Shown here: positions 16,401 through 59,222 of the stretch, piece by piece
Position numbering within the stretch: the first letter of the stretch is position 1
Layout: every line of letters begins with the position of its first letter
The notes under the pieces: model-generated
Seen by the model: the letters and a program-made list of their open reading frames with translations, nothing else
What the model was told of the DNA's origin: nothing
The model's database searches: none
Assembly: GCF_900142535.1 (NCBI RefSeq)
Contig: NZ_FRBE01000001.1
Location: 62,001-126,000, forward strand
DNA length: 64,000 bases
Direction of reading: 5' to 3'
From: Fibrobacter sp. UWEL
Lineage (GTDB): Bacteria; Fibrobacterota; Fibrobacteria; Fibrobacterales; Fibrobacteraceae
Translations under genes and position numbers: made by a program

Positions 16401-16467
16401 TTAGGGGCTAGGGGCTAGGATCTAGGGGCTAACCCTATACCCTATCCCCTGCACCCTGTACCCTATT
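16401..16467. repeat. Heptamer repeat pair, G-rich then C-rich
   Basis: A block of GGGGCTA units (with one GGATCTA) is followed directly by CCCTATA/CCCTGTA-type units, so two short tandem arrays face each other and can pair as an imperfect hairpin. The G-rich half holds three GGGG runs on the plus strand. It lies just after the helicase stop and may serve as its terminator. The architecture (7-bp units in head-to-head orientation) is the same as in the AT-rich array at 30341. Confidence 0.75.
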
Positions 16468-24543: not shown

Positions 24544-25911
24544 ATGAATCGATTGCTTACTTGTGCTGTCGCATTTGCCGTGTCTGTTGCGGTGCCGTCC
24601 TTTGCCAAGAAGAATAAGGATGTTTCTGAAGGTCCCTTCCAGCTGGGGCATAGCCTGGAAATGGTTTCCCGTACGGAGCTGAACGCTGCAGAAATTGCAA
24701 CCTATGTTCCAGAACAGAAAAGGCTCTACACTGTAGGTGATGAAAAGATCATGGAAGTGGTGGACCTTTCCAATCCTGCATCTCCCAAGATTGTAGAAAG
24801 CTTTGGACTGGATGGTGTGGCCACCAGTGTAACGTCCTATGGTGACTTGCTTGCGGTAAGCCTGCTTAATGAACCTGCCTGGGAAAAAGGCTTTGTGGAA
24901 TTGCTCCAGGTTAAGGGCGAAACAATTCAGAAACTGCATACCGTTCCTGTCTGCTATCATCCGGATATGCTGACCTTTAGCCCTGATGGCAGCAAGATTG
25001 TGGTGGCCTGTGAAGGTGAACCTAGCGAGGATGGAAAGGAAAATCCCGAAGGTGGAATTGCCATTCTGGATATGACCTTGATGGCCATGGGGACGGCTCC
25101 CGCGGTGATTATTTTGCCTTTTGAAGATAAGGATGTTGAACCAGAATATGTGACTATTTCTCACGATTCCAAAGTTGCCTGGGTAAGCTTGCAGGAGAAT
25201 AATGCTCTTGCTCGTGTGAATTTGGAAACGAAAACCATTGAGAAAGTTTTTGATTTAGGATATGTGGATCATTCCAAGAAGGGCTTTGCCCTGGATGCGG
25301 AGAAGGATGGAAAGATTCGTATTGAAAATGCATTCATTCGTAGTCTTCGTCAGCCCGATGGAGTCAAGTATTTTGAAGTGAATGGCAAGCATTATGTTGC
25401 TACGGCTAATGAAGGTGCCGAGGTGAAGAACTTCAATCCCAAGACAATCTGTGGTAATGAGGAAAAATGCCGAGTCAAGTTTGGTTCTCGTTCCGTCAGC
25501 ATTTTTGATGGGGACGATGGCAAGCTAGTCTGGGATTCCGGAGAACAGCTGGAACAGACTTTTGCCAAAGTGGCTCCGGAATACTTTAACTGGAATTCCA
25601 AGAAGGGGAAGGCGAAGGTGGACGCCCGCAGCGATGATATGGGGTCTGAACCGGAGAATATTGTTATCGGGAAAGTGGGTGACAAACTCCTGGCATTCCT
25701 TGGGATGGAACGCATGAGTGGCGTTGCTGTCTTTGACTTTACGCAAGCAGGATCCGCTGCTCCCAAGCTACTGGATTACTACATGGATCCCAAGGATCGC
25801 GGCCCCGAAGGAATGCTATTCATCGATGCCGATAAGAACACCACCGGCGAAACACTCCTAATCGTCTGCTACGAATACAGTAAGACCCTCGTTGTTTACA
25901 AGGTTAAATAA
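24544..25911 (+). CDS. Choice-of-anchor-I-type secreted beta-propeller protein
   Basis: A 455-residue exported protein with a signal peptide ending SFAKK. The body is a beta-propeller of the kind annotated as choice-of-anchor I / alkaline-phosphatase-associated: YVPEQKRLYTVGDEKIMEVVDLSNPASPKIV, MLTFSPDGSKIVVACEGEPSED, GGIAILD, VSLQENNALARVNLET, DDMGSEPENIVIG and the closing LIVCYEYSKTLVVYKV. The enzymatic role of such proteins is not established. ATG 24544 is chosen over ATG 24529 because the signal peptide begins there and GGATGGGA precedes it. Its 3' end overlaps the convergent hrpB by 8 nt. Confidence 0.78.
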   Translation: MNRLLTCAVAFAVSVAVPSFAKKNKDVSEGPFQLGHSLEMVSRTELNAAEIATYVPEQKRLYTVGDEKIMEVVDLSNPASPKIVESFGLDGVATSVTSYGDLLAVSLLNEPAWEKGFVELLQVKGETIQKLHTVPVCYHPDMLTFSPDGSKIVVACEGEPSEDGKENPEGGIAILDMTLMAMGTAPAVIILPFEDKDVEPEYVTISHDSKVAWVSLQENNALARVNLETKTIEKVFDLGYVDHSKKGFALDAEKDGKIRIENAFIRSLRQPDGVKYFEVNGKHYVATANEGAEVKNFNPKTICGNEEKCRVKFGSRSVSIFDGDDGKLVWDSGEQLEQTFAKVAPEYFNWNSKKGKAKVDARSDDMGSEPENIVIGKVGDKLLAFLGMERMSGVAVFDFTQAGSAAPKLLDYYMDPKDRGPEGMLFIDADKNTTGETLLIVCYEYSKTLVVYKVK

Positions 25912-28360
25912 CGGATTCGGGCCATGGATGCTTAGGATATCTTCCGCGGAGTTCCTTTCTAACTTCGGCGTAGGTGTTCTGCCAGAATCCTGTTAAATCC
26001 CAAGTCTTCTGGATGGTGCGGAAGTTGGGCGCCAGAATGTCATAGCGGACTTTCAATTTCCCATCAGCAATATGATGCTCCCCGCGGAGGACCATCAGGT
26101 CTTCAATGCGGGCGGAAATTTCCACCAGTACACCTTCTGCACTTTGAACCGTAAGACCATCCCCAGTGTCAAAGACCTGCTGGTAGCTGTAACGGGCTCG
26201 CTTTCCGTTGGGCAGCACAAAATGATCGGGGAAAGTTTTCCCTAGCCATTGCAACATGGACTTCCCGAAGTAATCTTCTATGATAGCGCGGTAACGATCT
26301 TCGTTAATATCTCTCAAGAGGAATATGCCGTCGGTGAATTCATTGAAAATCAATTCCATATCTTCTTCGTTGAATTCTGGCAGTCCAAATTCCGGATAGA
26401 GCTTGGCCGCAAGACGCATCTTGATGAGCAACGTCTGTACGTTCTCCGTCAGGAATTTTCCGTCCCAATTTTCCTTTTCCAGTTTTTCCTTCCAGGCATC
26501 TACGGTGAGTTCCTTCAGCTTGGTTAGAACTGCGGGGGAGGCTTCCTGCGGGAGTATCTCTCGTTCAGACGCTCCTTGAATTTCCTTCCCGATAAAACGT
26601 TCCTGACCGCTGCGCCACAGCAGTTCATAACGGATGGGCTCATCGCTGTGGACCAGCAGTTCCTTGGGGACGGGAACGTAGAGATTGACGCGAAGTTCTG
26701 ACTTGGAACCGCCACCAGTTCTCAGCATGGAAAGACTGAGGATGGCGTAGGGCGGTTCTGCAACCTGTAGGCGAATGACGTTGCCGTTATCCAGCTTGTA
26801 CACTCCACCGTTTTGAGAGGCGGCCGGGGTGGCTTGCCTATCGGGATAGGAATGCAACAGCGTGCGGATTAATTGCTGCTCGTCATCTTTGCGAGTGGCG
26901 TTAGAATTGCCGAAGACGTTCTTGCGGTAGTCCTGCAGTTGCCTTAAGGTATAAGTCACTTCTCGAGGTGCGCTTCCCCCTTTCAAGGAGTCGCCTGCAA
27001 GAGAAATCAAGTTCAGAGGCTGCTTGGATTTCTGGACGAATTCCGTACCGGAGTGAATCCAAGCCATGGCGGCAAGCGTCAAGTCGGACAAGTCATCTGC
27101 GGACTTTGCTGTAGCGAGAATTAACGCCAGAGGAATGTCTGTGACGGGAGTGCGGATAGCTTTTTCGCCCAGCTCCGTAATGGCGCCTGCATCCAGCATG
27201 CCGAAGCCTTCCAGCAGTTTCAATGCAGTCTGCTTTCTGTTTTCGGGAATGTCCGTAGGCAAAGTCAAGGTGCCAACGCTCTTTTCCAGCGATGCCTTCT
27301 GCAGTAATAATTCTGAAGGTTCAATCTGCGTCATCTCGGGAATAATACCCTGGGGCATTCGCTTTTCGGCTTCCTCGCTCCATAGACGGATGGCGCAACC
27401 GTTCTGAGTTCGTCCTGAACGTCCGGAACGCTGGATGGCGTTCTGCATGGAAATGGCTGAAGTCCTAAGAACGTTTACCTTCTCGCTGTCATCGTATTCA
27501 CTGACGCGTTCAATACCGCTATCCACCACACCGCTGACGTTGGGAACGGTGATGGAGGTTTCTGCAATGTTGGTGGTAAAGATGACTCGCGGTCTTTCCG
27601 TCTCTTCGAAAATGCGATCCTGGATGTTTCTTTCCTGGCCACCAAATAAGTCCAGGTATTCTGCGGCTTGACTTCCCAATGCTTCTTCTGCTGCCGTATG
27701 GCAGCGCATAATTTCGCCCTTGCCTGGTAAAAACACTAGCGTTGTTTTCCAGACGTCATTCAATTTTAAAGTGCGCAGCGCTTTCACCACTTCCGCTTCC
27801 AGGGTGTTGCCTGTGGTGGGGTTCTGGTGGAGAATCTGAACGGGATAAAGAGGGTGGCCCAGTTCCAGACACTTAACGCCTAGGGCGCTTTCCATTTCGT
27901 CACGATTCAGTTTTGCGGACATGACGGCAATGCGAGGACCTTTTTTCAGAAGGTAACTGAACAGCAGGTCCATGTCCGCCTTGCGTTCGTGGTATTCGTC
28001 AAAGACAATCCAGTCCGCGTCTAGCTTTCCGTGAAGCAGTTCCTGCAGGAAGTTTCCGTAGGTCTGGAAAAGAATCTTGGTTTCACTGGACTTGCAACTG
28101 TCCTGGCGAACTTGGTAGCCGACGGTTCGTCCGCAGCTTTCCTCGTGGAGTTTTGCTGAATACTGGGCTAGAGAGATGGCGGCGATACGCCTGGGCTGCA
28201 GTACTACAACGCGACCTTTGCAATGCTTGGAAAGAAACCAGGGAATGTAAAGGGACTTACCAGACCCCGTGGGAGCTTCCACCAGGAGATTGCGGTGTTC
28301 ACCGATGGCTTGTTCCAGCTTTGATTCTTCTTCTGCGATGGCAAGATCTTCGTATCTCAT
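25904..28360 (-). CDS. hrpB: ATP-dependent RNA helicase HrpB
   Basis: An 818-residue DEAH-box SF2 helicase. Motif I is EAPTGSGKS (28-36), Ia LQPRRIAA, II DEYHERK (121-127; DEYH replaces DEAH), III SAKL, V TTNIAETSITVPNV, VI QRSGRSGRTQNG. The C-terminal third carries the HrpB-specific region with LPNGKRARYSYQ near the end. HrpB's cellular role is poorly known; in some bacteria it affects mRNA decay or rRNA handling. Its tail overlaps the convergent choice-of-anchor gene by 8 nt, with no terminator between them. Confidence 0.92.
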   Translation of the reverse strand: MRYEDLAIAEEESKLEQAIGEHRNLLVEAPTGSGKSLYIPWFLSKHCKGRVVVLQPRRIAAISLAQYSAKLHEESCGRTVGYQVRQDSCKSSETKILFQTYGNFLQELLHGKLDADWIVFDEYHERKADMDLLFSYLLKKGPRIAVMSAKLNRDEMESALGVKCLELGHPLYPVQILHQNPTTGNTLEAEVVKALRTLKLNDVWKTTLVFLPGKGEIMRCHTAAEEALGSQAAEYLDLFGGQERNIQDRIFEETERPRVIFTTNIAETSITVPNVSGVVDSGIERVSEYDDSEKVNVLRTSAISMQNAIQRSGRSGRTQNGCAIRLWSEEAEKRMPQGIIPEMTQIEPSELLLQKASLEKSVGTLTLPTDIPENRKQTALKLLEGFGMLDAGAITELGEKAIRTPVTDIPLALILATAKSADDLSDLTLAAMAWIHSGTEFVQKSKQPLNLISLAGDSLKGGSAPREVTYTLRQLQDYRKNVFGNSNATRKDDEQQLIRTLLHSYPDRQATPAASQNGGVYKLDNGNVIRLQVAEPPYAILSLSMLRTGGGSKSELRVNLYVPVPKELLVHSDEPIRYELLWRSGQERFIGKEIQGASEREILPQEASPAVLTKLKELTVDAWKEKLEKENWDGKFLTENVQTLLIKMRLAAKLYPEFGLPEFNEEDMELIFNEFTDGIFLLRDINEDRYRAIIEDYFGKSMLQWLGKTFPDHFVLPNGKRARYSYQQVFDTGDGLTVQSAEGVLVEISARIEDLMVLRGEHHIADGKLKVRYDILAPNFRTIQKTWDLTGFWQNTYAEVRKELRGRYPKHPWPESVI

Positions 28361-28380
28361 AACTCAAAACTCATAACTAT
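28361..28380. repeat. Short run of AACTCAT-like heptamers
   Basis: AACTCAAAACTCATAACTAT directly upstream of hrpB is two to three units of the heptamer A(A/T)CTC(A/G)T seen in the large array at 30341. Confidence 0.5.
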
Positions 28381-29018: not shown

Positions 29019-30338
29019 GTGTTTTCCAATTTATGGAAAAATTTTGGCTTGAAAGAACTGGGTGCGGCACTCTTGCTGTCCCTTGCTCCCTTGCATGCGG
29101 CTGACGAACCTTCCAAAAATGAATCTGCTGGGGCTTGCGCTGAAGGGACCCTGCTTACAGGTATCGTCCTGAGTGGTTTGGAACATACTAACGAGCGTGT
29201 GGTTCGGCGAGAGCTTGTAAACCAGGTAGGGGAGGCCTACTCCTCCGAAAAGTTCGTTTCCGAAAAGCGTAAGCTGGAAGATCTGGACTTGTTCACCGAT
29301 GTTCAGTTCAGCTGCGATGCCCAGGGCGTTGCCCATTACCAGTTTAAGGAAATTTTCCGCTGGATTCCTTCTCCGGCGGGGAAGTCTACGGACCGCGATG
29401 GCCTCATGATTGGCCTGGCACTGGCTAACTTGAATGTGCTGGGTGAGGATATTCGCGCCGAAGTGCAGTATCGTACCGCCGTGTCTCCTTTCCTTAAGAA
29501 CAATGAGTATGCGTTCTATTCCAGTTCTCCTTACCTGTTTGGCTTGCCCTTAGGATGGAATTTTGAATTTCTCCGTACGGACAGCTGGGATGACCTGAGA
29601 AATTTCAATGATGCAAGCTGGTTGCTGGATCTGGACCTGGACTGGAAAATTACGTCCCACTTGTCCCTCCTGATTTCCGGTGCTTACCGCTATCTGGAAG
29701 AGGGCCCGGGACATCTGCCGGAAGCTGGCATTGGCTTTGTCTTCGATTATCGTGACGCTTCTCTGGATACTCGCAAGGGCGTGTATCTGGAGTACATGCT
29801 GACTCATGTAGGTGCAGGTGGCTTCGATCATGATGCAGAACATCTGGGCGGTGAAAACTACTGGGAACTCCTGACGGATGCACGAGCCTTCTATACTGCC
29901 TGGCGCTTTATTACAGGTGCGACAGCCTTGGTTCGTTTCCGTCCTGGCGATGTGGAACGTTATGATTTCTTCTATCATGGCGGGGCCAATACATTCCGCG
30001 GTCGTGAATCCAATGGAGACCGTCTGGGAGTCCATGAGGCTTTGCTCACGCTGGAAGAACGCTTTGTCCTGCGAGAACGTAAGGCGGCCTCCCTCGGGGG
30101 AATTAACTTCTTCTATGGTCTGCAGCTGGTGGCGGGTCTGGATGGAAGTCTATTGTGGGATAAGGGCGCTCCTGGCTGGGATAATTACGAGGGCGCCGTC
30201 TATGGCGGGCTCCACATTGTGATTCCCGCTCTGGACCGTGTGCGATTTGAAGTAGGCTACAGCCCCGACCGCGGGGAACCGGTATTCCACTTCGGCCTCT
30301 TTGACAAGACAGTCTCCGCTCGCTGGCGCAACCGGTAG
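29019..30338 (+). CDS. Omp85/BamA-TamA-like outer-membrane protein with one POTRA domain
   Basis: A 439-residue protein starting with GTG, chosen because GGAGG lies 5 nt before it and no ATG is in frame nearby. A signal peptide (about 1-28, ending LHAAD) leads into a POTRA-like domain (about 45-115: GIVLSGLEHTNERVVRREL..GEAYSSEKFVSEKRKLEDLDLFTDVQF) and then a beta-barrel of amphipathic strands with F.GRESNGDRLGVHEALLTLEERFVL, comparable to the conserved R-rich strand (VRGY) of Omp85 proteins. It probably inserts or exports proteins or lipids at the outer membrane. Shorter than BamA (five POTRAs), so it is a specialised relative. Confidence 0.75.
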   Translation: MFSNLWKNFGLKELGAALLLSLAPLHAADEPSKNESAGACAEGTLLTGIVLSGLEHTNERVVRRELVNQVGEAYSSEKFVSEKRKLEDLDLFTDVQFSCDAQGVAHYQFKEIFRWIPSPAGKSTDRDGLMIGLALANLNVLGEDIRAEVQYRTAVSPFLKNNEYAFYSSSPYLFGLPLGWNFEFLRTDSWDDLRNFNDASWLLDLDLDWKITSHLSLLISGAYRYLEEGPGHLPEAGIGFVFDYRDASLDTRKGVYLEYMLTHVGAGGFDHDAEHLGGENYWELLTDARAFYTAWRFITGATALVRFRPGDVERYDFFYHGGANTFRGRESNGDRLGVHEALLTLEERFVLRERKAASLGGINFFYGLQLVAGLDGSLLWDKGAPGWDNYEGAVYGGLHIVIPALDRVRFEVGYSPDRGEPVFHFGLFDKTVSARWRNR

Positions 30339-30340
30339 TA

Positions 30341-30579
30341 GTTATGAATTACGAATTATGAATTATGAATTATGAATTACGAAATCGTATCTCATAACTC
30401 ATATCTCATAACTCATATCTCATATCTCATATCTCATATCTCATAACTCATATCTCGTATCTCATAACTCATATCTCATAACTCATATCTCATATCTCAT
30501 AACTCATATCTCATAACTCATATCTCGTATCTCATATCTCGTATCTCGTATCTCATATCTCATAATTCGTATCTCGTAA
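30341..30579. repeat. 239-bp array of 7-bp units in two opposed orientations
   Basis: This fills the 339-nt gene-free stretch between the Omp85-like gene and ppa. From 30341 to about 30384 the units are ATGAATT/ACGAATT; from there to 30579 they are the opposite orientation, ATCTCAT, AACTCAT, ATCTCGT and AATTCGT, about 28 units. The consensus is A(A/T)(C/T)TC(A/G)T. The two halves can pair as a long imperfect hairpin. Nothing in the stretch codes for protein. 30580-30677 holds only an AT-rich region and the ppa ribosome binding site. Confidence 0.9.
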
Positions 30580-30677
30580 GTGAAAGTCCTTGACTTTCTG
30601 TAAATAAATGCTAAATTTTTATTACATATACTGAATAATCATAAAATCACGGGCTCGTGGGAGCTCGAGGAGAAATA

Positions 30678-31268
30678 ATGGCAATTAACTACTTGGACCT
30701 GCCCATTGGCAAGAAGTATCCCTACGAAGTGGATTGTGTTGTTGAAATTGGTAAGGATACTAACCTCAAGTACGAATACGATGAACGTTTGCATGTGTTC
30801 CGTCTGGACCGCTGCCTTTTGAGCTCTATGAGCTACCCCTGTACTTATGGTTTCATTCCCAGCACCAAGGCTGACGATGGTGACGCTCTGGATATGCTGA
30901 TCTATAGCCCCGCTTCCATGATGACTGGTACTGTCTGCACCTGCCGCGTCATTGGCGCTCTGGACATGACTGACGGTGGCAAGAAGGACTATAAGGTCCT
31001 GGGCGTTCCCGTTTTCAATCCCCGTCCCATTAAGGACATTACCGACGTGGACCAGATGTTCCTCCGCATCACCAAGAACTTCTTCCAGAACTACAAGGAA
31101 TTGGAAGGTAAGGACGTTCAGATTGGTGAATGGAAGAACGCTGAGTTCGCTCGCGAAAAGGTGATTGTAGCCCATCGTGCTTACTATCAGAATCAAGTGC
31201 AGATTCCGGAAACCTGCTACCAGGAACCGGAAGCTGGTGAACATCTTCCTCCCGAAGAACTGATCTAA
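30678..31268 (+). CDS. ppa: Inorganic pyrophosphatase (class A)
   Basis: A 196-residue soluble family I pyrophosphatase, which hydrolyses PPi to drive biosynthetic reactions. KYEYDERLHVFRLDR near 32-46 and the signature ADDGDALDMLIY (about 71-82) supply metal ligands; DITDV and the C-terminal EWKNAEFAREKVIVAHRAY fit the plant/Bacteroidetes-like branch of class A. The ATG at 30678 follows GAGGAG; an in-frame ATG upstream at 30657 lacks a site. A hairpin terminator follows. Confidence 0.9.
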   Translation: MAINYLDLPIGKKYPYEVDCVVEIGKDTNLKYEYDERLHVFRLDRCLLSSMSYPCTYGFIPSTKADDGDALDMLIYSPASMMTGTVCTCRVIGALDMTDGGKKDYKVLGVPVFNPRPIKDITDVDQMFLRITKNFFQNYKELEGKDVQIGEWKNAEFAREKVIVAHRAYYQNQVQIPETCYQEPEAGEHLPPEELI

Positions 31269-31327: not shown

Positions 31328-33190
31328 ATGCGCAAACTTCTTTTCCTTTTGCTTCTCGTACTCGCCGTAGGGTCTTATGCCAAGACCCTGGTTGCCGTCG
31401 TGGAAACGAAGGCGGAAGATGAGGCCATTAGTTCTTCGGAGCGTCGGTTTGTAACAGATAAGCTGCGTGAAATTGCCAACAAGATTCTGCCGGCTGATGC
31501 GGGCTTCAGCATCATGACTCGTGAGAATATCGAGATGATGCTTCCTCCGGGAAAGACCATCGGGGAGTGTGAAGGAAGCTGCCTGGCGGAAACGGGACGT
31601 AACATTGCGGCGGACTTTATTGCCCAGGCCCGAGTGGGGCGCTTTGGTGAAAAACTGACCCTGACGGTGGAAATGTACGAGACTAAAACGAGCAAGCTGG
31701 TCTCGAGCTTTACGGGGACCAGCCCCGATACAGAGAGTCTGCTGGATGTAATCGAAAGTGATGCTGAAAGATTCTTTAAGAAAGCCCGAAAGGGACGTGA
31801 GGACGCAGGTGACTTTATTGGTCCGGACGGTTTCTCCGATTATTCCGACGGGGAATCTTATTCCATGGCGCGGACCCGCAGTTATATCGTGCAGGTAAAA
31901 AGCAATCCTGCAGGAGCTCTCCTCAGTGTGGACGGAAAGCCTGTGCCCAGCTGTAAGGAAACGCCCTGCAAGATCCAGCTGGAAGCAGGGGAGTATCATT
32001 TTGTGATCGTTGCGGATCAGCACTTTCAGAAGGATACCCTTGTGGAGGTGCAGCAGAGTATGACCTTGAATTTCAAGCTGAAACCTCGCTTTGGATTGCT
32101 GGACGTGAGCCCCACCTACGAGAAGGAATACTACATCAATGAGCCTACGTATGCCTACTTGAATGGAGACTATATTGAGCTGGGGGTGAACCGTCTGAAT
32201 CCTGGCAGTTACAACCTGAAGATTACCAATAACTGCTATGAGCCTGTATCCGCTAGCGTGACCGTTAAAACGGGAAGTCAGCTGACCTTTGATAAGAAAA
32301 TGAAGGTGGCGAAAGGTGGACTTTCCCTAAGTGCCACTCGCGATGACGTCCCTGCGGAAGAGCCTGTTTTTGTGGATGGAAACTATGTTGGCAAAACACC
32401 CTATGACGGGGAAGTTCCAGTATGCGCCACCATTACCATCGGGGCCAATCGTGAAGTGGTTCCCGTGACCATTCCCTATCACGACGAAGCGGATTATACC
32501 TATCAGTTTGCATCCCGAAAGTCCTACGAAACTTCCTATAGCGAATTGGACGAGGATTACGGCTACGCCCCTCAGGCTGTTGCTACAAAACCGAATAGAA
32601 CGCAAAAACGTTCTGAATCCATAGTGGCGCCTGTTGCGGAGTCCTCTGGAAATAGTATCAATGGTTCCGGCTATTTCCAGGTGTTGGCGGGTATAGGATT
32701 TGACCTGCCTTTGTCTCAAACTGCATTCGATGATACAGGCTTAAACTTTATGCTGGGCCTTTATTATGTGGAGGTCTTTGCAGGATGGAAATTCAGCGGC
32801 GGTTTCTTTGCTGGTTTAGGCGCTGGCCTTGGGATTCATGATCCCTTCGTGATGGATTCTTCATCTTCCGATGGCTATAGCGACTATTACGGCATGTCCG
32901 AAGATGTAGGCAATTCTATGCTTCCATCTCCGTCTCTTGCAGGCATTCTATCTGTTGAAATGGGAAATGATTTCACGATGAATTCTGGATACAAGGCTGC
33001 TGTGGGCTTCCGTGCATCTATGGTGTTTAGCTCCTGGCCTGCCATATCCATCAGTGGTTTCTTTGAAATCTTGTCCTTCGCGGGTATGGAAGTAGGATTC
33101 ACTACCGTTACTGGCGATGACCTTTGGGACGACGGTACTGGAATTTCCATGAGGTTCTATTTCAGGTTCCCCAGCCGCCCCGGTGTTTAA
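31328..33190 (+). CDS. PEGA-domain protein with N-terminal TolB-like and C-terminal barrel-like regions
   Basis: A 620-residue exported protein. A signal peptide (about 1-18, ending GSYA) precedes an alpha/beta domain (about 19-160: LVAVVETKAED..RFVTDKLREIA, FSIMTRENIEMMLPP, ADFIAQARVGRFGEKLTLTVEMYETKTSKLV) that resembles the TolB-N/FlgO fold. Then follow PEGA-type repeats (about 195-265 with VKSNPAGALLSVDGKPVPSCKETPCKIQLEAGEYHF, and about 340-385 with PVFVDGNYVGKTPYDGEVPV), which often bind cell-wall or surface partners. The C-terminal 170 residues are Gly/aromatic-rich alternating strands like a small outer-membrane barrel. ATG 31328 is chosen because the signal peptide starts there. Confidence 0.75.
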   Translation: MRKLLFLLLLVLAVGSYAKTLVAVVETKAEDEAISSSERRFVTDKLREIANKILPADAGFSIMTRENIEMMLPPGKTIGECEGSCLAETGRNIAADFIAQARVGRFGEKLTLTVEMYETKTSKLVSSFTGTSPDTESLLDVIESDAERFFKKARKGREDAGDFIGPDGFSDYSDGESYSMARTRSYIVQVKSNPAGALLSVDGKPVPSCKETPCKIQLEAGEYHFVIVADQHFQKDTLVEVQQSMTLNFKLKPRFGLLDVSPTYEKEYYINEPTYAYLNGDYIELGVNRLNPGSYNLKITNNCYEPVSASVTVKTGSQLTFDKKMKVAKGGLSLSATRDDVPAEEPVFVDGNYVGKTPYDGEVPVCATITIGANREVVPVTIPYHDEADYTYQFASRKSYETSYSELDEDYGYAPQAVATKPNRTQKRSESIVAPVAESSGNSINGSGYFQVLAGIGFDLPLSQTAFDDTGLNFMLGLYYVEVFAGWKFSGGFFAGLGAGLGIHDPFVMDSSSSDGYSDYYGMSEDVGNSMLPSPSLAGILSVEMGNDFTMNSGYKAAVGFRASMVFSSWPAISISGFFEILSFAGMEVGFTTVTGDDLWDDGTGISMRFYFRFPSRPGV

Positions 33191-33216: not shown

Positions 33217-33241
33217 TAGTTATGAGATACGAATTATGAGG
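33217..33241. repeat. Short heptamer run
   Basis: TAGTTATGAGATACGAATTATGAGG: the inverse-orientation units (ATGAGAT, ACGAATT, ATGAG) of the 30341 array, in the gap after the PEGA gene. Confidence 0.55.
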
Positions 33242-33660: not shown

Positions 33661-33746
33661 GCTAGATCCCCCGTCAAGCGGGGGATGACGTGCTATAATC
33701 AAGCGGGGGATGACATGTGGCTCAATCCGCGGGGGATGACGTGCTA
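33661..33746. repeat. Three tandem copies of a CCCCC/GGGGG palindromic repeat
   Basis: Three spaced copies of AGCGGGGGATGACGTG-like sequence (at about 33677, 33702 and 33728). The first is preceded by GATCCCCCGTC, so it forms a CCCCC...GGGGG hairpin. The last copy abuts the stop codon of the radical SAM gene (minus strand). The motif recalls the widely dispersed GGGGATGAC-type bacterial repeats, and may act as the transcription end of the radical SAM gene. Confidence 0.75.
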
Positions 33747-34646
33747 GAAAATCCTTACCTTTACGGGTAACTTGCTTGTGATTTTCTTTGCGACGGTTTC
33801 CATGAATTCTTTTTCCAGGGGGAGTACGTCGGGGGTTGCGGTCTGGCGGATGACGGTGTACAGCTGGACTTCCACGAAATGTTCGGGGCAGGCGTTGTAA
33901 ATGCGGGTCAGGTTCTGCAGGTAGCTTTTGATTTCTGCGTCGCTAGGAACTTCGCCCTTGATGGAGCAGAGCATGGTCTGGATGCAGATGGGATGGCACT
34001 TGATGGCCTTTTCCAAATTGGAAAGGATGGTGTCGAACTTGACTGCGGAACGGTTCACCTTCTTGTACCATTCTTCGGTACCGGCGTCCAGCTTTGCCCA
34101 GATTTCACCATCGTTTTCTAGCAGGATAGAAAGGGCGTCTTCTACGGAATCGCGACCTAGCTGGCTTGCGTTGGTAATCAGGCGCAGCTTGAAGGAGGCT
34201 GGGTTCAATGGATCGGTGGAACCTACGTGACGTGCCTGGTATTCCTGCTGGATTGCACGCATGCGCCTGCATACTTCGGCAAATTCCTTCACGATGGTGG
34301 ATTCTCCATCGCCGGAAAGACAGAGGTCCTTGATGATTTTCTTATCGTCGGCCACCTTGCCGAAAAAATCACACTTGGCGAACTCGCCGGATTCATAGAA
34401 CAAGACGAACTGACGGAGTTCCTTTTCCACTTCGTCCACATTTACGGGAACAGAAGGGTGGCCTTCCTGGGGACCGCTCTGGCAATAGGCGCAGGCAAAG
34501 GAACATTTGTGGTCAGGGTTCAGATTGACGCCAATGGACAAGCCTCCAGCCCTGCGGCTGATGACGGGATAGACCCACTTGTTGTCTTTCCACATGCGAG
34601 AGTGGTCGCTCCATGCGGCAATCAATGCTTTTTCTTGTTCTGTCAT
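33744..34646 (-). CDS. Radical SAM enzyme of unknown substrate
   Basis: A 300-residue radical SAM protein: GLSIGVNLNPDHKCSFACAYCQ (about 34-55) carries the CxxxCxxC cluster (Cys 48, 52, 55), LSGDGESTI and the later LRLITNAS strand fit the partial TIM barrel. It lacks an obvious C-terminal auxiliary-cluster Cys set. The form recalls a group of stand-alone radical SAM proteins related to the wyosine/YfkA types; the substrate is unknown. The start has no Shine-Dalgarno sequence but TATATTTG lies 5 nt upstream. Its stop codon touches the palindromic repeat at 33661-33746. Confidence 0.8.
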   Translation of the reverse strand: MTEQEKALIAAWSDHSRMWKDNKWVYPVISRRAGGLSIGVNLNPDHKCSFACAYCQSGPQEGHPSVPVNVDEVEKELRQFVLFYESGEFAKCDFFGKVADDKKIIKDLCLSGDGESTIVKEFAEVCRRMRAIQQEYQARHVGSTDPLNPASFKLRLITNASQLGRDSVEDALSILLENDGEIWAKLDAGTEEWYKKVNRSAVKFDTILSNLEKAIKCHPICIQTMLCSIKGEVPSDAEIKSYLQNLTRIYNACPEHFVEVQLYTVIRQTATPDVLPLEKEFMETVAKKITSKLPVKVRIF

Positions 34647-56564: not shown

Positions 56565-58211
56565 ATGAAGAATTACGGCAAAGTTTACTTGATTGGTGCT
56601 GGTCCTGGTGATCCGGGGTTGTTCACCCTGAAGGGCAAGGCTATTTTGGAAAAGGCTGAGGTGGTTGTCTATGACCGCCTGGTTTCTCCTGCGATTTTGG
56701 CCATGTGCAATGATAAGGCGCAAATGGTGGATGTGGGCAAGATGCCGACCCATCACAAGGTGAAACAGTCAGAGATTAATAAACTGCTGGTGAAGTTCGC
56801 CCAGGAAAATCCGGGTGCGACCATCGCACGTTTGAAGGGTGGCGATCCCTTTGTGTTTGGCCGTGGCGGCGAAGAATGTTTGGAACTGGTGGAAGCCGGC
56901 GTCGAATTCGAAGTAGTGCCTGGTGTAACCGCTGGAATCTCTGTGCCGGCCTATGCAGGAATTCCCGTGACCCATCGTGGAGTTGCCACAAGCTTGCATA
57001 TTATCACCGGACATGAAAAAGATGAGAGACTTGCTTGTCATCCTGAGCAAGCGCAGAATAATGCGTGTCATCCTGAGCAAGCGAAGCGCGTCGAAGGATC
57101 TTCTGTCTCGGGCTTGGATTTTCCGGCTCTTGCCAAGTGCCCGGGGACCTTGGTGTTCTACATGGGCATTTCCAACATGGATTTTATTGCCCGCCGTCTT
57201 ATGGAATGTGGCAAGGATCCTAAGACCCCTCTGGCATTTATTGAAAAGGGTACCACTCCTTACCAGCGTACTGTTTCCTGTACCTTGGAAACTGCGGGGG
57301 AGACTATCGTCCGTGAAAAAGTGGTTGCTCCGGCTATCACCATTATGGGTGATGTTGTTGAACTGGGCTCCTCCTTGGCTTGGCGCAAGAATCTGCCGCT
57401 GTCTGGCAAACGTTTGGTTATTACTCGCGCCGCAAAACAGGCTGGCGGTATTGCTTCGAAACTGAGTGCACTGGGCGCCGAAGTCATCGAAACCCCCATG
57501 ATTGAAACTGCCACATGTCATCCTGTAGTCTCCATATGTCATCCTGAGCGCAGCGCGCAGCGCGAAGTCGAAGGATCTAGCAGAGTGGATTTCGCAGATC
57601 TCGCAAACTTCGATATCCTGGCATTCACCAGCACCAACGGGGTGGATTCTTTCTTTGAATCTTTGTTCAAGGCCGGCTTGGATATTCGTGTCCTTGCTGG
57701 AAAGAAGATTGCAAGTGTTGGTAAGATTACCGAAAAGAAATTGCTGGAACGTGGCATTCGCTGCGATTACGTTCCTGAAGACCATACCGGCGAAGGCCTG
57801 GGTAAACTCCTCGCTGAAAAGTGTGGCGACGCAAGAATCCTCCTCCTTCAGGGCAATCTGGCAGATGATACCTTGTTGAAACTTCTCCCGAAAGCAACTC
57901 GCTGGGTGGTATACGAGACGTTGCCTGTGGCAACAATGCCCGACTGGAAACGTGAAGCCGTTGCAACCGCCGACGCCGTTGTCTTCGCAAGCTCCAGTGC
58001 CGTGGAAAACTTTGTTAAGACTGTGGGTTGCCATTGCGAAACTGTTCTAACACAGGAATCTCGTAATTCGTATCTCATACCTCGTATCTGCTTCTCCATC
58101 GGCCGCCTTACCTCCGCCACAGCCAAGAAGTATGGTTTTGAAGTAATCGAAAGTGAAGAAACCACCATGGATTCTCTGGTGAAAAAAATCGGGGAATATT
58201 TCGCGGTATGA
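56565..58211 (+). CDS. cobA-hemD: Fused uroporphyrinogen-III methyltransferase and uroporphyrinogen-III synthase
   Basis: A 548-residue bifunctional protein. Residues 1-265 are CobA/SUMT (VYLIGAGPGDPGLFTLKG; VVYDRLVSP; GDPFVFGRGGEE; GVTAGISVPAYAGIPVTHRG), making precorrin-2 from uroporphyrinogen III; about 280-548 are HemD (LVITRAAKQAGGIASKLSALGAEVIETP; FTSTNGVDSFFE; ASVGKIT). Three stretches are repeat-derived and in frame: about 158-180 in a CobA loop (two CHPEQA units), about 318-340 after IETPMIETA in HemD (CHP.. and CHPERSA..), and ESRNSYLIPRI (about 498-508), which is the AT-rich heptamer family. All fall in loops between core elements. It overlaps the next gene by 4 nt. Confidence 0.9.
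   Translation: MKNYGKVYLIGAGPGDPGLFTLKGKAILEKAEVVVYDRLVSPAILAMCNDKAQMVDVGKMPTHHKVKQSEINKLLVKFAQENPGATIARLKGGDPFVFGRGGEECLELVEAGVEFEVVPGVTAGISVPAYAGIPVTHRGVATSLHIITGHEKDERLACHPEQAQNNACHPEQAKRVEGSSVSGLDFPALAKCPGTLVFYMGISNMDFIARRLMECGKDPKTPLAFIEKGTTPYQRTVSCTLETAGETIVREKVVAPAITIMGDVVELGSSLAWRKNLPLSGKRLVITRAAKQAGGIASKLSALGAEVIETPMIETATCHPVVSICHPERSAQREVEGSSRVDFADLANFDILAFTSTNGVDSFFESLFKAGLDIRVLAGKKIASVGKITEKKLLERGIRCDYVPEDHTGEGLGKLLAEKCGDARILLLQGNLADDTLLKLLPKATRWVVYETLPVATMPDWKREAVATADAVVFASSSAVENFVKTVGCHCETVLTQESRNSYLIPRICFSIGRLTSATAKKYGFEVIESEETTMDSLVKKIGEYFAV
57037..57101 (+). repeat. Two in-frame dispersed repeats in the CobA part
   Basis: A partial copy (57037-57055) and a full copy (57067-57101), both read as CHPEQA.., separated by AATAATGCGT. 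Confidence 0.85.
57517..57578 (+). repeat. In-frame dispersed repeats in the HemD part
   Basis: A short remnant (GTCATCCTG, 57517-57525) and a full copy with an inner duplication (CGCAGCGCGCAGCGCG; 57538-57578), in the CHPE frame. Confidence 0.85.
58056..58089 (+). repeat. AT-rich heptamer units inside hemD
   Basis: Four to five units (ATCTCGT, AATTCGT, ATCTCAT, ACCTCGT, ATCT), the same family as the array at 30341, encoding ESRNSYLIPRI in frame. Confidence 0.8.
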
Positions 58212-59182
58212 AAGTCGTCCTGATTATTGCCCATAACTGCATTCAACCCGGTGCATTCCGCGGTTTCGAGGCTGTGTTGGATGGCCTTCGCAAGAACATG
58301 CCCGGGGCGCGCATTGCAAGCACCAGCCTTGTGGATTTAGATAACGATCTTCGAGCCATCTTGCGTGAGGATGTGGAATCCGTAACTTTACTGCCGTATC
58401 TTCTTTTGAATGGCCGTCATTCCAAAGGGGATATCCCCGCCATTGTTGCTGATGCCCAGAAGGATTTCCCGCAGATTCCCATGACTCTTCTGCCGCCCTT
58501 GGGTGAATGGGATGGTTTCCCCGATATGGTGGTGAACCATGTTTGCAAGGTGAACCAGAGTGCTGAACCCCGACGTCATTCTGAGCGCCCCTCCCAATGT
58601 CATCCTGAACGTAGTGAAGGATCTCGCAGTTCCCTCTTCGCCATTGAAATGAATCTTGAGGGCAAGAACGTTCTCGTGGTTGGCGGCGGCCGCATCGCCC
58701 TCCGTAAGGTAAAAACGTTGTTACCCACAGGAGCCCACATTACCGTAGTGGCCCCGCTGTTTGATCCCGAATTCCATGCTCTTGTATCTAATAGTTCGGC
58801 AGGCTCACCAACCTTAGATAAGGTCCCTGAGCTCAGCCGAAGGGCCTGTTTCTCGTCTCTCGTTTTATTAGAACGCACTTACGAAACCTTGGATTTGCGG
58901 GGTGTTTCCATGGTGTTTATCTGCACCGACCAGCCGGCGGTAAATGCCCAGGTCAGCAATGATGCTCGTGCCCGCCGTATTTTGGTGAACAATGCCTGCG
59001 ATTATCTTGATGGTGATTTTATTGTGCCTGCCCGAATGGACTTTGGCGAAAATATCACTGTCACCGTTTCCACCCAAGGCAAGGCCCCCAGCCTAGCTAA
59101 GAAACTGAAACAGAAAATCCAAACCGACTGGTCTACAGAACTGACCCAAATCGAAAAAGAATTTATAACTCATAACTCGTAA
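58208..59182 (+). CDS. cbiX-met8: Fused CbiX-like chelatase and precorrin-2 dehydrogenase joined by a repeat-derived linker
   Basis: A 324-residue protein. Residues 1-115 resemble a short CbiX/SirB chelatase (VVLIIAHN with the active-site His, VTLLPYLLLNGRHSKGDIPAIV with the second His, and LLPPLGEWDGFP), expected to insert iron into sirohydrochlorin. About 140-324 are a Met8/CysG-N precorrin-2 dehydrogenase (MNLEGKNVLVVGGGRIALRKV; MVFICTDQPAVNAQV; GDFIVPARMDFG; STQGKAPSLAKKLK). The linker (about 122-139, RRHSERPSQCHPERSEGS) is two copies of the dispersed repeat. A further related element lies inside the Met8 part (58822). The last residues (ITHNS) and stop codon come from AT-rich heptamer units. 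Confidence 0.82.
   Translation: MKVVLIIAHNCIQPGAFRGFEAVLDGLRKNMPGARIASTSLVDLDNDLRAILREDVESVTLLPYLLLNGRHSKGDIPAIVADAQKDFPQIPMTLLPPLGEWDGFPDMVVNHVCKVNQSAEPRRHSERPSQCHPERSEGSRSSLFAIEMNLEGKNVLVVGGGRIALRKVKTLLPTGAHITVVAPLFDPEFHALVSNSSAGSPTLDKVPELSRRACFSSLVLLERTYETLDLRGVSMVFICTDQPAVNAQVSNDARARRILVNNACDYLDGDFIVPARMDFGENITVTVSTQGKAPSLAKKLKQKIQTDWSTELTQIEKEFITHNS
58575..58624 (+). repeat. Dispersed repeats forming the CbiX-Met8 linker
   Basis: A partial copy (GTCATTCTGAGCG, 58575-58587) and a full copy (GTCATCCTGAACGTAG..GAAGGATCT, 58599-58624) at the domain junction. Confidence 0.85.
58822..58846 (+). repeat. GGTCCCTGAGC...GAAGGGCC element inside Met8 part
   Basis: An imperfect palindrome (GGTCCCT ... 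AGGGCC) with the same CTGAGC and CGAAGG core as the other family; encodes VPELSRRA in a loop. Confidence 0.65.
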
Positions 59183-59222
59183 TTTATAACTCATAATTCA
59201 TCATTCATAACTCGTAACTCTT
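59162..59222. repeat. AT-rich heptamer array between met8 and hemB
   Basis: About eight units (AACTCAT, AACTCGT, AATTTAT, AATTCAT, CATTCAT) that hold the stop codon of cbiX-met8 and end directly before the hemB ATG. Confidence 0.8.

Follow-up and report, generated by a model that had tools for sequence, protein, structure and literature searches.

The heptamer array upstream of ppa

The window (the whole stretch of 64,000 nucleotides that was analyzed) is located on contig C1 of a Fibrobacter genome (G000; 3.53 Mb in 62 contigs, 99.98% complete), for which gene starts and stops were taken from a home-made codon-usage caller. A putative BamA-like outer-membrane gene, so called from the character of its sequence (ORF 29019-30338, plus strand, with the stop codon TAG at 30336-30338), is followed on the same strand by ppa (inorganic pyrophosphatase, 30678-31268; the name was given in a preliminary description of this DNA). 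Between them lies an array of 7-bp units that starts 3 nt past the upstream stop codon and that, by direct reading, contains six TTAYGAA and then 27 YTCRTAW units at 30342-30579. The left arm (30342-30383) is made of six G-strand heptamers, TTAYGAA, which read TTCRTAA on the minus strand to which the arm was assigned; TRF reported period 7, 6.0 copies and a score of 70 for it. The right arm (30388-30579, plus strand) is far longer, with ~27 C-strand heptamers YTCRTAW (TRF: 30388-30575, period 7, 26.9 copies, score 278). The period scan and the inverted-pair listing placed the junction or loop at 30384-30390, with one degenerate unit, ATCGTAT. A strict unit scan gave 6 WTAYGAR followed by 27 YTCRTAW units; together with the degenerate unit, these make up the 34 heptamers estimated in the preliminary description, including the opposite orientation of the first six. 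The variable positions of the unit also agree with that description, right-arm units differing at positions 1 (Y), 4 (R) and 7 (W).

Among periods 4-12, this array was the only period-7 stretch of the 64-kb window, which also had one period-12 stretch and none of the other periods. Neither an ORF nor a remnant of an IVP gene (see below) was found in the array, and no T-tract was read directly after it. RNA folding of 30339-30420 yielded z = -4.5 for the plus strand and -7.7 for the minus strand; the sense-RNA hairpin is weaker than the antisense one and, by reading, has A.C mismatches.

The promoter of ppa, TTGACT (30590-30595) ... TAAATT (30612-30617), lies on the plus strand between the array and ppa, begins ten nt past the array end, is outside the element and is conserved in species that lack the array. 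The ppa promoter and leader were recognizable in most of 46 Fibrobacter loci, with or without an insert, and some of the species nearest by Ppa identity (L032, L037 and L038) have no such array upstream of ppa. With promoter and leader conserved irrespective of the insert (in a comparison of one genome per species), and with the array positioned upstream of the -35 box, the earlier suggestion of a phase-variable element of ppa gains no support. In three loci of other species (L043, L055 and L065), the BamA-ppa spacer is enlarged by another long repeat (~100 nt, up to three copies, with CTCGTCAATACGAG).

Several smaller heptamer groups are present in the window. A second inverted pair, of TAGGGGC and then ACCCTAT units, is found at 16402-16466, and its family matches the arms of an IVP gene on contig C4. 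The unit scan also revealed three YTCRTAW units that overlap the start codon of a helicase-like gene, 25904-28360 (28349-28376, plus strand), three units of this family after gene 31328-33190 (33220-33240, or 95220-95240 of C1, minus strand), and five that overlap a stop codon and reach to within 6 nt of the start codon that follows (59169-59217, plus strand). At 58060-58087, 3-4 heptamers of the same family fall within a predicted CDS, in an open frame and ~40 codons from its end. Between two small genes, at 33674-33754, we also noticed roughly three tandem copies of a 25-26 bp repeat.

Distribution and polarity of heptamer repeats

A genome-wide search for the consensus revealed that similar arrays are present elsewhere: the three-unit YTCRTAW-family pattern had 73 + 67 = 140 matches in the genome vs 0 for the reversed pattern, and it was present in 14 of the 60 genomes listed. 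Across Fibrobacter species the units are diverse, including CTCGTCT, AACCACT, TAGACAG, CCTCGAG, CCCTATA and AATTCCG. When 58 ppa loci (683 kb) were scanned, period 7 accounted for 57 stretches, period 14 for 22 and any of the remaining periods between 2 and 13 for 0-4. Samples of 100 kb from eight other species (69 kb for one of them) contained 0 to 5 period-7 stretches each; in both sets, as in the all-family polarity, RAYT, RT and IVP-flank counts below, orthologous copies are included and events are not independent. The contig of the window itself, scanned nearly in full (338.6 kb), had 11 period-7 stretches.

In the same genome, inverted pairs of the YTCRTAW family were observed at 10 loci, all of them arranged as (WTAYGAR)n-(YTCRTAW)m, and the tail-to-tail pattern of this family was found 0 times; loci beyond contig C1 had been chosen for holding arrays. 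This bears out the preliminary view that period and inversion carry meaning and are not accounted for by slippage alone. Thirteen of 32 arrays with gene calls were mixed in orientation, and 13/13 of these ran left-then-right. Single-orientation arrays between co-directional genes (15 in number) followed the genes in nine cases and ran against them in six.

We then considered all heptamer families in 175 Fibrobacter sequences. By GC skew, 24 of 29 pairs were G-left/C-right, 3 were ambiguous and 2 were reversed, the latter (L059 and L066) representing one AT-rich orthologous locus. As a control, the ordinary intergenic hairpins in these sequences, 302 in number, were classified as C-left (157), G-left (91) or equal (54). 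GC skew replaced an earlier purine/pyrimidine measure after the result of the latter was known, and both counts are given here: for period 7, the first measure had yielded 17 RY, 2 YR and 10 ambiguous pairs, and both YR pairs (L194 and L196) are G-left by GC skew. Few pairs were found in cyanobacterial plasmids, of which 4 were G-left and 1 was ambiguous.

Different inserts in the same intergenic gaps

Orthologous gaps were compared across species. Upstream of rlmH, 22 of 30 loci had heptamer-type inserts of 84-193 nt (that of G022 being doubtful) with at least six unit families: YTCRTAW-like, TAGTGGT/ACCACTA, AGACGAR/YTCGTCT, TAGACAG/CTTCCTA, ATGTGGA/ACATCTC, GTCATTG-like and ATCATCA. These inserts start directly after the upstream stop codon and extend to the rlmH start codon or close to it. 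The other loci comprise five gaps of 0-13 nt, one with a single arm (G026), one with another repeat (G035) and one without an orthologous neighbor (G002). Even in G000, G009, G024 and G011, whose RlmH proteins are 98-100% identical, the rlmH-gap inserts differ. Such replacement of the unit letters between species at one site, judged from sequence comparison, argues against a single fixed DNA-binding factor, as would be expected for the protein-binding array that had also been suggested. A core hairpin, ATAATCGCGGC-nnn-GCCGCC, recurs within pairs of differing arms.

In the purN-rnhB gap, a heptamer pair (84 nt) is present only in the genome studied here and the gap is 3 nt in G030, G010, G005 and G003, the comparison being limited to rows with the downstream rnhB motif. 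Upstream of an EamA-like gene, 30 loci included seven inserts of 432-493 nt, from seven species, in which heptamer arms surround an IVP ORF, 14 gaps of 3-16 nt and five IVP-less heptamer inserts, one of them in G000. The rest were one truncated IVP insert, two other short sequences and one locus without an orthologous neighbor. The presence of empty gaps of 3 nt beside complete elements would favor, but does not prove, insertion of the element as a whole.

Two additional observations were made in these gaps. In the EamA-like gap of G016 (L337) and G002 (L342), the IVP inserts have two consecutive right-hand AATTCCG-type arrays, as if a second right arm had been gained. In some Fibrobacter species, as at L173 (G035) and L195 (G020), stop-to-start gaps of this sort are occupied by another dispersed palindrome, GTCATCCTGAGCGAAG ... 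GAAGGATCT.

IVP genes and their flanking heptamers

The ORF of the EamA-like gap belongs to PF05635 (23S_rRNA_IVP, 23S-rRNA-intervening-sequence protein), a family that was detected in 27 of 41 Fibrobacter genomes and also in other Fibrobacterota. Relatives with a known structure include 2gsc (Xanthomonas XCC0516) and 2rld. There are two IVP genes in the genome of the window. The one at C4:183155 matched PF05635 with an E-value of 1.6e-41 and bAvd (PF22296) with 2.6e-8, the latter below the cut-off of the model and indicating a distant likeness to Avd; its arms, TAGGGGACAGGGTATAGGG ... CCCTATCCCC, belong to the family of the window pair 16402-16466. The arms of the other, at C21:53110 (TTACGAGATATGAGTTATGAG ... 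AACTCGTCATTCATAACTCATCATTCGTAA), belong to the family of the window array 30342-30579. By direct reading, the C21 gene has TTAGTTACGAGATATGAGTTATGAG as its left arm and AACTCGTCATTCATAACTCATCATTCGTAA as its right arm, and the final heptamer of the left arm can contain its ATG, with its stop codon in a heptamer of the right arm.

The flanks of 33 IVP matches were then compared with those of control genes; two matches were dropped from the lag-score test and one, for short flanks, from a stricter arm rule. The mean best lag-7 score (of 21) was 15.6 on the left and 15.1 on the right of 31 IVP loci, compared with 9.6 and 9.9 in 340 control genes; lag 14 was also raised, and the remaining lags from 3 to 13 were near control. 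Terminal inverted similarity exceeded the 95th percentile of the control at 17/31 IVP loci. Under the stricter rule, arms were present on both sides of 8 of 32 loci, on one side of 19 and on neither side of 5, the corresponding numbers for 794 control genes being 4, 67 and 723 (Fisher's test with orthologous copies counted separately: p 9e-10 for both-sided arms; p 4e-22 for any arm, 27/32 vs 71/794). All 8 two-armed loci were G-left/C-right. A further 20 Fibrobacterota IVP loci (one of which was the C4 gene refetched) included 17 that were G-left/C-right, 1 reversed (L404) and 2 unclear; these 20, like a preceding set of 30 IVP loci, were best-scoring or hand-picked from longer lists.

Outside Fibrobacterota, 12 plasmid IVP loci taken from 32 records (10 cyanobacterial, Gemmatirosa and Azospirillum) had mean lag-7 scores of 15.6 and 14.1. 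A score of at least 14 was reached on both sides in 6/12, on one side in 2/12 and on neither side in 4/12; the period-7 flanks of two of the six two-sided loci (L408 and L412) are direct, not inverted. On pAfl69 of Dolichospermum, two heptamer arrays flank a gene (29091-29489) that is annotated as a four-helix bundle. It was also observed that IVP splits gene partners in plasmids of Nostoc edaphicum, Anabaena sp. 90, Pseudanabaena galeata and Picosynechococcus PCC 7003 (L407, L410, L412 and L413), the partners being two ribonucleotide-reductase genes, cas6 and cas4 (twice), and cas10 and a cmr3-like gene.

Across species, IVP was present in 18 of 22 genomes with the heptamer element and in 2 of 5 without it (Fisher p = 0.09), an association that is only suggestive. 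PF05635 was not found in G007, G012, G021, G023 and the one-armed G026 in spite of their rlmH heptamers, some of these genomes being incomplete.

Comparison with known repeats and intervening sequences

Heptamer repeats and IVS/S23p elements are each known already. Within the open-access papers that were searched, we found no work linking the two beyond a note on Coxiella, in whose 23S rRNA a 428-nt IVS is excised by RNase III; its 5' end has GACAGAT heptamers before the S23p ORF, with the RNase III site at the first repeat (PMC4990558). According to the same source, the 23S rRNA IVS of Coxiella, Leptospira and others are likewise inserts of ~430 nt with inverted ends and an ORF of the S23p/IVP family. 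In contrast to them, the Fibrobacter elements are located between protein genes, their ends have period 7 and a species-specific sequence, and most copies have no ORF. The window array has the inverted, base-pairing ends of an IVS (by its folding z-scores and the 10 head-to-head loci). It has no S23p/IVP ORF, which is present in the related elements of seven other species and in two of its own genome, and it lies between the BamA-like gene and ppa rather than in a 23S or 16S rRNA gene; we therefore refer to it as IVS-like and not as an IVS.

The window array also agrees with intergenic heptamer repeats of the STRR/SSR type, as its 7-bp units are tandem, dispersed and mostly intergenic. The name STRR is used for the heptanucleotide repeats of heterocystous cyanobacteria. 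Three heptanucleotides are cited for Calothrix PCC 7601 in PMC4679880. According to PMC4692102, the GGGAATC and GGGGAYT repeats of Xanthomonas and Nostoc form inverted pairs that are always convergent (70 and 75 cases) and resemble those of Fibrobacter in being dispersed intergenic heptamers of G-left/C-right polarity. They differ in their units, in being described as G-quadruplex repeats and in having no IVP link in the sections consulted; a Xanthomonas IVP homolog (PDB 2gsc, XCC0516) matches the IVP of the genome studied here. The TAACTGA repeats of Beggiatoaceae and the cyanobacterial STRRs are similar in that they have period 7, are intergenic and strain-variable and often end beside a start codon, but, unlike the Fibrobacter pairs, the TAACTGA sets are nearly all in one orientation, and the sections of PMC4679880 consulted mention neither an element nor an ORF for them.

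Origin of the array and alternative explanations

It is likely that the window array derives from a small heptamer-armed IVS-like element of which it has kept the arms but not the IVP gene. The layout of the element, its polarity, its location in gaps, the IVP gene in the same layout in relatives and the matching arm families in the same genome were all observed directly. A complete element would consist of an ORF encoding a four-helix-bundle IVP (PF05635), with G-strand heptamers to its left and C-strand heptamers to its right, and its inverted arms would pair in RNA as an extended, imperfect hairpin. In analogy to 23S rRNA IVS elements, RNase III would probably cut the element out of the operon transcript, and we propose that this removal would make it tolerable in stop-to-start gaps. 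Short ORF-less copies, which would share descent with the IVP elements, may then have spread into the same kind of gap. We infer such spread because the same unit families occur at many loci; the element would accordingly be mobile, and IVP may have a part in this. Neither movement or excision of an element nor a duplication of its target site was observed. The arms would afterwards gain or lose 7-bp units by slippage, the right arm of the window array having reached 27 units, and its unequal length is most simply explained as later slippage.

On the other hand, the arms of IVP genes could be older arrays into which IVP inserted. In its general form, this alternative holds that slippage in spacers makes heptamer arrays, period 7 being favored by the polymerase, and that IVP genes land there. 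We consider it unlikely, even though heptamers are over-represented among the long simple repeats of many bacteria and a polymerase-footprint idea has already been published (both according to PMC4692102 and PMC4679880). IVP-less arrays are also more numerous than IVP genes, of which this genome has 2, and the long right arm of the window array is itself best explained by slippage. However, slippage yields neither inverted pairs nor a set polarity (10 vs 0), and it gives neither one unit family at dozens of loci in a single genome nor inserts where the gaps of relatives are 3 nt.

A host-derived hairpin, either an expanded or bidirectional intrinsic terminator, as had been proposed for the ppa array, or a host-selected mRNA-stabilizing structure, is very unlikely. 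The inverted arms do fold and often begin 4-10 nt past a stop codon, but the skew of the heptamer pairs (G-left/C-right in 24/29) is opposite to the lean of the 302 ordinary intergenic hairpins, and the reading as an expanded terminator therefore fails. In addition, the arms are highly unequal, many copies lie within tight gene pairs, single-orientation arrays show a 9 vs 6 division relative to gene direction, and many species without the insert have nothing in its stead. The window array itself has neither the skew of local hairpins nor a T-tail.

Fused telomeres have G-left/C-right polarity. A telomere-like or break-repair process that extends the two 3' ends of a break with G-strand heptamers, and so leaves a head-to-head array after fusion, would account for this same polarity of the pairs and for arms that, by eye, are not unit-by-unit mirror copies, but the IVP-ORF cores between arms and the shared core hairpin need no break repair and reverse transcriptases are only sporadic, so that we give this explanation almost no weight. 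There is hardly any chance that the arrays are REP/REPIN-like elements mobilized by a RAYT (Y1) transposase: they are indeed dispersed intergenic palindromes, and Y1 transposases occur in some species, but PF01797 had no match in the genome of the window and matched in only 5 of 25 genomes, arrays are common without it, and the arms are 7-bp tandem units rather than a fixed hairpin. Both RAYT and RT had been considered as the generator of the arrays and were rejected, as their distribution does not match that of the arrays. Fold-back copying, by which one arm would derive from the other, was considered too but not retained, since by eye the arms do not mirror each other's unit variants.

Implications

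For the heptamer repeats described in cyanobacteria, Xanthomonas, Beggiatoa and others, no origin has been generally accepted, and the 23S rRNA IVS with its S23p/IVP protein has been called selfish, its way of moving being not known. A tentative extension of our results, possible rather than probable, is that the intergenic heptamer repeats of many phyla represent ends and relics that belong to a single, widespread, RNA-processed selfish family. Full members would encode IVP, a relative of Avd, the helper of diversity-generating retroelements, and would move, perhaps via RNA and a reverse transcriptase acting in trans, into the stop-to-start gaps of operons, rewriting the arm unit but keeping period, polarity and place. 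The results also caution against taking arrays of this kind for promoters, terminators or phase switches. If heptamer repeats and IVS elements are indeed one thing, both questions could be put to the test in a rumen genus that can be cultured and of which many species have been sequenced, in which IVP-bearing, IVP-less and empty states of one gap are available, together with many natural arm variants that keep the period and the inversion and change the sequence.
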